A DNA stretch of 64,000 nucleotides from Pseudomonadota bacterium (lineage in GTDB: Bacteria > Bdellovibrionota > Bdellovibrionia > Bdellovibrionales > JACTMU01): the NCBI GenBank assembly GCA_014584465.1, contig JACTMU010000094.1:1-64000 (forward strand). The letters are read 5' to 3'. Positions within the stretch are counted from its first letter, which is position 1; the number at the start of each line of letters is the position of its first letter. The notes under the pieces were generated by a model. That model did no database searches and was not told the DNA's origin. It saw nothing but the letters and a program-made list of their open reading frames with translations. Below are positions 27,336 to 33,690 of this stretch, piece after piece. A program made the position numbers and the translations under genes.

Positions 27336-29602
<2,267 letters not shown>

Positions 29603-29614
29603 CTGTGCCAGGCA

Positions 29615-29809
29615 CTAAAGATGATCCACAGCGATATCTCGAGCCATGACTGTCTTTCTGCCATCAGCTTTGGCACTGTCAATGCCTCTTTCGCAAAGAG
29701 CCTCCACAGCTTTACTTAAGACATCAATGGTTTCAGAGGAGGTGTTGCACCCACCCTTTTCTTTAATGAGTTTTTTTACTTTGCTGGTAACAACTAAAAT
29801 CTCTGACAT
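29615..29809 (-). CDS. Bacterial histone-fold protein (Bd0055-like)
   Basis: The 64-residue protein reads as one histone fold: helix 1 (SKVKKLIKEKGG), long helix 2 (SSETIDVLSKAVEALCERGI and on to KADG) and helix 3 (ARDIAVDHL), with the GRKTVM loop that matches the RKT-type loop of archaeal histones. It resembles the small bacterial histones known from Bdellovibrio. It would dimerise and bind DNA as a nucleoid protein. The start at 29809 is chosen for its GGGAG ribosome-binding site. An upstream in-frame Met adds a stretch without similarity. It converges on ligA. Confidence 0.82.
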   Translation of the reverse strand: MSEILVVTSKVKKLIKEKGGCNTSSETIDVLSKAVEALCERGIDSAKADGRKTVMARDIAVDHL

Positions 29810-29944
29810 GCTCAAACTCCCATTATTGGTCCAAACGTCCACAACTTAACTCGTGGTTCAACCACTCGGTAAATTATCTTCCGACTCTCTATGTAAGTCT
29901 AGAGCTTTAGGCAAAATGCCACGTGTTGCTCTGTGTAATGCAAT

Positions 29945-31411
29945 TCAACTTACACGTCTTTTGCGGCGCGTTTTTGTCCCTCTCATCTGATGAAATGCCT
30001 CTTGAACATTGTTCTTCCCCACAAATGTTTTTACCGAGGCAATTCGCACCCCCTGCTTGCCTGGTTCAACAAGAACAAAGGTCTTTTGATCAATCGGTTG
30101 AGTGCACTCGACGTCCGTAAATGCCGGCGACCAGCAACCCGCATTGAGATGCTCGACTGCCCCAATGATTTCGTGACGAATGATGTGCGAATGTCCATAG
30201 ACGATCCGAGTCACCCCTGTAATCATGCTTGCCATCGTCAGCACTTTCTCCTTTGGCTCCATAAAGGAGGCCACTTCGGATACGATGGTCTTAGAATAGA
30301 ACACAAAAAAGGGAAAAAACATCACCATAGGAATCAAGATCCATAAATAGGATATGGCAAAAAAACTTCTGAGAGCTGTAAACACTACAAATACAAGATA
30401 GAAAATCACAAGCACCATAAAGGCCTGGTCCAACCACAATTCCCGAGCCACGAGATACGGATCGCTCTCTGCCGGTGCAGCAAACAGCGCTTTGAGTTCT
30501 CTGACCATACGAGGAGTCGCATTGGCTTTTCGCGCGATTTCTCGAACCCGATCTTCAATGGTCAGTGGATCCCTCAAGGGTGGTTTTAAGCGATCATTCA
30601 GAGATTGAATCAAAATGATCGAAGCTCCCCAAATCCAGGTCCAAACAACAAGTGGTTGAGTTCTCAAAAGATACTTTAAATAGAATTTCAAATATTCAGG
30701 AACCGTCATGAGATAGTTGCTATCCACGTGTGGATTGATCAGGCCCATTCCATTGACCATATATTGACAGGCCAGATTGCCAAAAGGAAGTCTGAGCTCC
30801 AAGTGGTTGTACTTTTGAATGAATGGGCTGATGGGATCTTGACAGACACAGTAGGGGTCATATTGATTTCCATGTTCAATGAGAGTGTCTTTATTGCTGA
30901 TGTAGAACCACTCATTAAATCTTACTCGCCCCCGCTCCTCCTCTGTGAGATTCAATCGTTCAAGGAGAGTCTGCTGGACTCCTAGAAAATGGAGTCCCAA
31001 ATCATGGTTTCCTGCCACAAAGACAATGCGATTTCCTTTTTTGACAAATTGGGAAAGCGCTCGGAAAAGCACCTCATGATCAGAGAGAATAACCTCGATC
31101 TTATAAATGGTTTTCTCTTCTTGCGCAAACAATCCTCGCCGTCTTTCAAGCCATGAAACTCGAAAGGTTGCATCATTTGGATAAACAGTGACACTGTCAA
31201 AGTCAAAGATGTCTCCATTGAGAATAAGTTCTACCGACTCGTTGCCGCCCAAACAATCCAAATAGTTTAAAAATTCGGCGAATGTCTCATCATAAAAGAA
31301 TTCTTTGGTTTTGAATTTTTTCCAGAGGGGATTTTTGGCACGAACTGGTTCTGCTTCACAGAGATGCAGATCACTTACAATCGCAGTGTAATTGGCCTTG
31401 TCAAAATCCAT
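29945..31411 (-). CDS. Metallophosphoesterase with inserted membrane segments
   Basis: The 488-residue protein has the complete calcineurin-like motif set: VSDLHL (residues 12-17), LNGDIFDF, VAGNHDLG, IEHGNQYDP and VYGHSHI near residue 420. The nearest family is the LpxH-like UDP-diacylglucosamine hydrolase branch. Unusually, about 230 residues with roughly three hydrophobic helices (VVWTWIWGASIILI, FMVLVIFYLVFVVFTAL, YLWILIPMVMFFPFFVFY) lie between the fourth and fifth motifs, so the catalytic fold is split by a membrane region. The C-terminus is very basic (GTKTRRKRRV). The substrate is unknown, perhaps a phospholipid or lipid A intermediate. Confidence 0.78.
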   Translation of the reverse strand: MDFDKANYTAIVSDLHLCEAEPVRAKNPLWKKFKTKEFFYDETFAEFLNYLDCLGGNESVELILNGDIFDFDSVTVYPNDATFRVSWLERRRGLFAQEEKTIYKIEVILSDHEVLFRALSQFVKKGNRIVFVAGNHDLGLHFLGVQQTLLERLNLTEEERGRVRFNEWFYISNKDTLIEHGNQYDPYCVCQDPISPFIQKYNHLELRLPFGNLACQYMVNGMGLINPHVDSNYLMTVPEYLKFYLKYLLRTQPLVVWTWIWGASIILIQSLNDRLKPPLRDPLTIEDRVREIARKANATPRMVRELKALFAAPAESDPYLVARELWLDQAFMVLVIFYLVFVVFTALRSFFAISYLWILIPMVMFFPFFVFYSKTIVSEVASFMEPKEKVLTMASMITGVTRIVYGHSHIIRHEIIGAVEHLNAGCWSPAFTDVECTQPIDQKTFVLVEPGKQGVRIASVKTFVGKNNVQEAFHQMRGTKTRRKRRVS

Positions 31412-31441: not shown

Positions 31442-33640
31442 CTAAAACAGATGGTCCACAATACTCAAATAGACGGAATCCACAATGAATATTTGGGAGA
31501 AGAAACGCGACGATCCTTCCGGATAGATAGAAAGTGTGCGAAATCCGACAGGAACGTTGAAGAGAATGTAACCTCCTCCTATGGCCTGCTTCAATTCATT
31601 TACAATCTCACCTCTTGAATCAAAAAAGAGGAGATTTCGATAATCATAATTTATACCTTCCTCCAGTTGGATCGATTCAATTTCCCCTTGAAAAAATCCT
31701 GCAATAAGACCTGTCCCAGGTTCAATCGAAATTTTTCGATTCTGGAGAAGGTTCGTCAACCACTCCCGCTTGACCATGGGAAGTCTTACGACGGGAGTGC
31801 TTGTCGGCATGATATGGCGGCTTTCGATGTATTCATCAGATTCCGTTTCCAGAAATATGAGACCTCTCTTTTCAGAGAACGAATAGAAATTCACTTCCTC
31901 GTGAGCATCAACTAGGATCTCCTGATCGGCTCCAATCTCCTTGATGGCTGCCGACACTCTCTTCGTCTTCTCCATTCCATCAAACATCTCAACAGGAATC
32001 TGCCTTGTCTCAGAGAAAACCAAACGTACCGGAGTAATTGCATTTTCACGCGTAGGCACAACTTCGATGGTGCTCACCATTTGACCTTTGATTGCTTTTA
32101 AGGAGACTGCCTCATCACGTAGTCCCACAATCGCAAACTCTCCATCCACGGAGGTTTCCGAAAGCGTCGACCCTCCGGGCAGATGCCACTTGAAATAGGT
32201 TGGCCAAACGGGAGTTTCAGAGGCCACCACAATGCGTGCCCCCTCAACCGGTTGCCCCTTCTCATCTACGACTTTGCCCCAAATGATCGCTGGATAGGTG
32301 AACTCTCTTCCCACCACCTGAGGCCGATCCCAATTCAACAGGGCTTGAACCCGCTCCTCAGTAAAGAGAAGAATCGGATTTGCATCGCCACTCAAACCAA
32401 GCTGTACCGTCGGCCAGAACTTATCACTCTTTCCCTCCAGAATGAGTGAAGATCCTCCTAAATAGGCAAGCTCTTCAAAGTACCCCTCACTGTTGGCCTT
32501 CATTTGAAGCGACTGCTCTCGGCAAGAGACGATGGCCTTCGGAATTGGCCAAATGAATTGATCATAAGAATCAGCCTCAGAGATCACTCGACCTGATATG
32601 CCAAACGAAGTGGGTTTTATGATGATCTTGGGGCCTTCGATGTTCTCCAGTCCATTGTCAAATGAGGTTTGAAGATTTTGATCAAGCGCCACCTCGCCTC
32701 GACCTAAAACCTCTCCCTCTCGAGAGAGAACTTCCGCCACGAGGACCCCTTGAGGATTCTTGAGAGAGATCTCATAAGTTCCTTTTTCCACATTTACAAA
32801 TCCCTCTTCCATAAACATGTCCGTGTTGGCCTGCAATCGATGCAGCTTAAAGCGCTGACGATCTCCTATGAACGCAAGCCCATCAGATATCTCCAAAGGT
32901 CCATGAACAACGATCTTATGATTTTCAGGAGACCCTCTGGGATTTTTTTGTGAAGATTCCATAAAAGAGGGGGTTAAAGGTGCCGGCTCTTGACCACTCG
33001 GAAACCCCTTGCGAACGACTCTCTCCTGGCTCGGTCGATAAGAAACTTCCTTGGTCGGATGAACACCCGCGGATGGAACACGAAGCGGTGCTGATCCAAC
33101 AGAAACAAGATTTTGGTTGATCTTTGCAACCTCTGGAACCGGGGAGACATTTGGATGATCCCTCTGATAAAGAGCCACATTTTGAAGTTCCTCTTTGACC
33201 AACTCTTGAGTGCGCTCTTGAAGTGTCGGAGCTGATTTCAATAGTTCTTTGAGCTCCGCAGTGTCAATTTCAGCTCCTCGCAGTCTCCGCTCCATTCGCG
33301 GCGTCAGGTCAAACTCCTCGACATCTTCAATGAAATCACGAGTTGAAATTCGTATGGGCGGCAAAGTCACAATTTGATCCGACTTTCGAATGACCTCTTG
33401 GTCCGAAGAAGAAATCTCTCCTGCACGAAGAGTCACAACCACTTGGGGAGAAATTGGGTCATCCGTGTTCTCTTTTCTTGGATTGGGCAACGTCTCCAAT
33501 AGGGCCATGAAAGCGGGACTGGTTCGATCAATTTTAATCTCGATCGGTTCCTTCTTGATCCTAAAATCTTGCTCCTTACAGTGAAAAGGCGACTGAAAAA
33601 ACAAGGTCAATGCAAATAGGGAAAAAGTGTGGAACATCAT
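31442..33640 (-). CDS. Large secreted protein with carboxypeptidase-regulatory-like domains
   Basis: The 732-residue protein starts MMFHTFSLFALTLFFQSPFH, a plausible signal peptide, hence the choice of 33640 over a Met 33 bases upstream. The first 250 residues are charged and low in structure. The rest contains repeated beta-sandwich modules such as ISGRVISEADSYDQFIWPIP and IIWGKVVDEKGQPVEGARIV, the second a clear carboxypeptidase-regulatory (transthyretin-like) domain. It is probably periplasmic or on the cell surface. No catalytic domain is seen. It lies just upstream of the metallophosphoesterase on the same strand. Confidence 0.6.
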   Translation of the reverse strand: MMFHTFSLFALTLFFQSPFHCKEQDFRIKKEPIEIKIDRTSPAFMALLETLPNPRKENTDDPISPQVVVTLRAGEISSSDQEVIRKSDQIVTLPPIRISTRDFIEDVEEFDLTPRMERRLRGAEIDTAELKELLKSAPTLQERTQELVKEELQNVALYQRDHPNVSPVPEVAKINQNLVSVGSAPLRVPSAGVHPTKEVSYRPSQERVVRKGFPSGQEPAPLTPSFMESSQKNPRGSPENHKIVVHGPLEISDGLAFIGDRQRFKLHRLQANTDMFMEEGFVNVEKGTYEISLKNPQGVLVAEVLSREGEVLGRGEVALDQNLQTSFDNGLENIEGPKIIIKPTSFGISGRVISEADSYDQFIWPIPKAIVSCREQSLQMKANSEGYFEELAYLGGSSLILEGKSDKFWPTVQLGLSGDANPILLFTEERVQALLNWDRPQVVGREFTYPAIIWGKVVDEKGQPVEGARIVVASETPVWPTYFKWHLPGGSTLSETSVDGEFAIVGLRDEAVSLKAIKGQMVSTIEVVPTRENAITPVRLVFSETRQIPVEMFDGMEKTKRVSAAIKEIGADQEILVDAHEEVNFYSFSEKRGLIFLETESDEYIESRHIMPTSTPVVRLPMVKREWLTNLLQNRKISIEPGTGLIAGFFQGEIESIQLEEGINYDYRNLLFFDSRGEIVNELKQAIGGGYILFNVPVGFRTLSIYPEGSSRFFSQIFIVDSVYLSIVDHLF

Positions 33641-33690
33641 GCTATCTCTGAGTCTAAAGCATAAGAATCCCAATTCCCATCTTTGACCCA

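Follow-up and report, generated by a model that had tools for sequence, protein, structure and literature searches.

The 64,000-nucleotide stretch of DNA analyzed here (the window) contains a short open reading frame that a first-pass annotation described as a single-domain bacterial histone. This raises the question of whether the frame encodes such a protein and how the protein may act on DNA. The frame runs on the minus strand from 29809 to 29615 and encodes the 64-residue product MSEILVVTSKVKKLIKEKGGCNTSSETIDVLSKAVEALCERGIDSAKADGRKTVMARDIAVDHL, with the ATG at 29809 and the stop codon at 29617–29615. A Shine-Dalgarno-like GGGAG site (29817–29821, minus strand) is located 7 nt 5' of the ATG, and GGAG-type sites also precede most of the orthologues examined. 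An upstream in-frame GTG, which would give an ORF of 75 residues, is an unlikely start, since the similarity to orthologues begins at M1. Scans at the histone gene found no terminator and a single promoter-like site, at chance level. The reading frame, the cysteines C21 and C39, and the GRKT loop (residues 50–53) are all as the annotation had given them.

The search of genome contigs for orthologues retained 80 loci, the majority of which carry a Bdellovibrionales or Bdellovibrionaceae label. They provide 76 distinct intact orthologues, and 66 of the 80 loci encode exactly 64 residues. The mean pS of 0.77 against a mean pN of 0.15 (66 orthologues) indicates purifying selection on the histone gene, and the true contrast is larger because pS is near saturation. 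Judged from its sequence, the frame is a genuine gene and not a chance ORF, because it matches the structures of the B. bacteriovorus histone at a phmmer E-value of 8e-29, has this number of distinct intact orthologues, and is under purifying selection.

The closest known system is HBb (Bd0055) of Bdellovibrio bacteriovorus (PDB 8FVX, 8FW7, 8CMP, 9EZZ, 9F0E). A phmmer search against the PDB placed this histone on top (8fvx, 7.7e-29; 8cmp, together with 9ezz and 9f0e, 8.7e-29), and the next match, 9f2c, which according to its title is HTkC of Thermococcus, had an E-value of 3e-6. In the complete B. bacteriovorus kdesi genome (L028), the orthologue has the same residue as the window histone at 51 of 64 positions. 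The 13 substitutions from HBb to the window histone are mostly conservative (A2S, V4I, Q20G, M21C, A25S, I35V, Q37A, L40E, K41R, V43I, E44D, V60A and I61V), and the window histone is slightly less basic, with a calculated pI of 7.8 versus 8.9. The two proteins have in common their length, fold, DNA-contact and clamp residues, dimer core, C39, lack of tetramer residues, and gene neighborhood. The "bacterial dimer" category of α3 histones was defined by sequence clustering (PMC11390915); the window protein is placed in the HBb group by the identity and phmmer E-value given above, and not by a repetition of that clustering. We conclude that the gene encodes an orthologue of HBb and is a "bacterial dimer" α3 histone, which probably bends DNA as a homodimeric major nucleoid protein. 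It thus adds one more orthologue of a protein with solved structures and a published function. The general family models miss the gene narrowly or widely (Pfam PF00808, 21.3 bits versus a cut-off of 21.4; NCBIfam archaea_histone, 30.2 versus a cut-off of 50). These sub-threshold matches reflect the models and not the protein, and automatic annotation may therefore overlook the gene.

The annotation had proposed a complete Bdellovibrio-type histone fold, a claim exposed to any structure prediction that lacked one. AlphaFold2, which was run on the monomer only, found the fold. The five models vary (pLDDT 58.6–85.6), and the best of them, with a pLDDT of 85.6 and a pTM of 0.62, contains helices at residues 2–19 and 25–48 and a three-residue helix at 56–58. 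It is therefore a single histone fold with a short α2 and a truncated α3. The top five Foldseek matches are all HBb chains (E-values of 4e-7 to 4e-6), and the next match is at 1e-2. The VIA comparison of the histone model with 8fvx gave a Z-score of 8.4 and an rmsd of 1.3 over 59 residues.

HBb binds the minor groove through T8, S9, K10, K12, K16, N22, T23, S24, A25, K52, T53 and R57, and bends DNA (PMC11317129). All these side chains are identical in the window histone except for A25S, the sole change among the DNA-contacting positions given for HBb. The RKTxxxD motif (R51, K52, T53 and D58), the RD clamp (R51/D58/D49), the α1 lysines K10, K12 and K16, and the dimer core are also present. HBb is the most abundant protein in the nucleoid fraction of B. 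bacteriovorus, its deletion was not achieved, and it lacks the archaeal tetramer residues (PMC10627809). By analogy, the window histone is most likely an abundant, sequence-independent, homodimeric DNA-bending nucleoid protein, and it would likewise be needed for growth. The long middle helix would form the contact between the two copies. At the minor grooves, the DNA backbone would be gripped by the first part of helix 1 (T8, S9, K10, K12 and K16), by loop 1 (N22, T23 and S24), and by loop 2 with helix 3 (K52, T53 and R57), without sequence preference. The dimer would bend the DNA and not wrap it in the manner of a tetramer, probably as a major nucleoid protein alongside HU/IHF. The 13 substitutions, including A25S, and the lower pI could alter the affinity for DNA.

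The same contact residues were initially read in another way. The crystal structure of Bd0055 and FRET measurements were interpreted as a straight nucleohistone filament (PMC10627809), and the window histone, which has the same residues, could in principle coat DNA edge-on in such a dense filament without bending it. However, later crystal forms of HBb, solution data, and simulation favor bending (PMC11317129), which makes the filament improbable. The sequence cannot tell the two modes apart, and we follow the later work in preferring bending. Wrapping by a face-to-face (FtF) tetramer, as formed by HLp of Leptospira, is very unlikely, even though HLp and HTkC follow HBb in the structural comparison (Z-scores of 6.5–6.6) and both have an α3 fold with a short helix 2, as does the window histone. 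The identity to HLp and HTkC is 35–45%, compared to 78–81% to HBb. HBb forms dimers exclusively, and the conserved interface residues in the C-terminal end of α2, loop 2, and α3 through which FtF histones tetramerize are missing from bacterial dimers (PMC11390915). A nucleosomal histone of the archaeal or eukaryotic type, which wraps DNA as a tetramer, is rejected, as the window histone has A48, S45 and V61 where archaeal tetramers have H, F and L (Bd0055 numbering), and α3 is three residues long. The ZZ histones (Bd3044 type) have the same α3 histone domain preceded by an N-terminal C4/C2H2 zinc-finger domain; the 64-residue window protein consists of the histone fold alone, so that it does not belong to this class.

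The cysteines were suggested by the first-pass annotation to allow redox effects, and the orthologues do not support this. C39 (codon at 29693–29695) is close to invariant, with cysteine in 75 of the 76 distinct orthologues and leucine in one, and the ZZ paralogues that were read have a cysteine at the equivalent position. We regard it as very unlikely that the protein is a redox sensor whose DNA binding or oligomeric state is switched by C21 and C39. Position 21 is cysteine in only 45 orthologues and methionine (27, as in B. bacteriovorus HBb), phenylalanine (3) or tyrosine (1) in the remaining 31 of 76, while C39 is retained regardless, so that there is no conserved pair. Furthermore, the antiparallel α2 helices are centered near residue 35, and the C39 side chains would probably be too distant from each other for an intradimer disulfide. 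Leucine replaces C39 in the most distant orthologue (Bacteriovoracaceae) and in some other distant ones, as expected for a core packing site; the sequences read from outside the order have either cysteine or leucine. Since C39 stays whatever residue is at position 21 and becomes leucine in distant relatives, the data suggest a small buried packing residue more than a member of a redox pair. Its near-invariance is still a little unusual. We can only speculate, with great doubt, that C39, which the ZZ paralogue also has, acts chemically, through modification of its thiol or by binding a metal, and in this way adjusts chromatin in the predatory cycle; C21 would then be a second thiol close to the DNA, specific to the lineage.

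The surroundings of the gene are conserved together with it. Downstream and convergent is ligA (27479–29602, plus strand), named from its sequence as the NAD-dependent DNA ligase, and 12 nt separate the stop codons of the two genes. Upstream, on the strand of the histone gene, is a metallophosphoesterase-like gene (29945–31411, minus strand), also named from sequence. In the 80 fetched loci, ligA is downstream and convergent in 75, at most 400 bases away in 54. In 50 of them, including B. bacteriovorus, the metallophosphoesterase gene precedes the histone gene in the same orientation; short contigs limit both counts. The gatC and gatA genes follow ligA in the relatives as in the window, and the order metallophosphoesterase–histone–ligA–gatC–gatA is common to the window and the B. 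bacteriovorus locus L028. Farther upstream, a fast-evolving 743-residue protein (31442–33673, minus strand; 20–31% identity) is encoded, which precedes the histone gene in 43 of the 80 loci. The metagenome-assembled contig CALQIT020000112.1 (L057), titled "Streptomyces griseus", carries a Bdellovibrio-type metallophosphoesterase–histone–ligA–gatA cluster, and the label or the bin is therefore probably wrong.

Histones are rare across bacteria, occurring in 1.86% of genomes (PMC10627809). The annotation's statement of their rarity thus holds overall and fails locally, as the histone is near-universal in this order: 59 of 60 genomes, the window's own included, contain a match, and 58 contain a close orthologue. 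One genome (G030, 790 contigs) has a ZZ-like match only, and the single genome without a histone match is 57% complete. Throughout the phylum, 169 of 192 genomes contain some relative of the histone, and the sequences read from outside the order have at most 62% identity to it. Across the order, including a family without another genome among the sampled relatives, both the HBb histone and its position next to ligA have been retained, and this retention supports a core role in chromatin. The predominance of Bdellovibrionales and Bdellovibrionaceae among the matches agrees with the proposed placement of the DNA in the order of Bdellovibrio.

The genome also encodes other candidate nucleoid proteins. 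Three HU/IHF-family genes score above the cut-off. A second histone domain is located at C62:14730–14903, outside the window and inside a frame of 176–183 residues. In its N-terminal part, this frame has the pattern C-x2-C ... C-x4-C ... C-x3-C ... H-x5-H, and this block can be aligned with ZZ-type paralogues from relatives. The 176-residue protein (L002:1147–1677, plus strand; G000:C62), with a ZZ-type zinc finger and a C-terminal α3 histone domain, belongs by its sequence pattern to the ZZ histones, which are known from B. bacteriovorus (PMC11390915). Both its zinc-finger and histone parts fall below the Pfam cut-off. The search of the genomes of the order revealed no extra short singlet histone in the window's own genome. 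Some other genomes of the order encode one in addition to the HBb orthologue, in frames of 72–91 residues with 37–44% identity to the window histone (G017:C4:101111, G033:C33:11375, G048:C85:6461 and G009:C47:74385).
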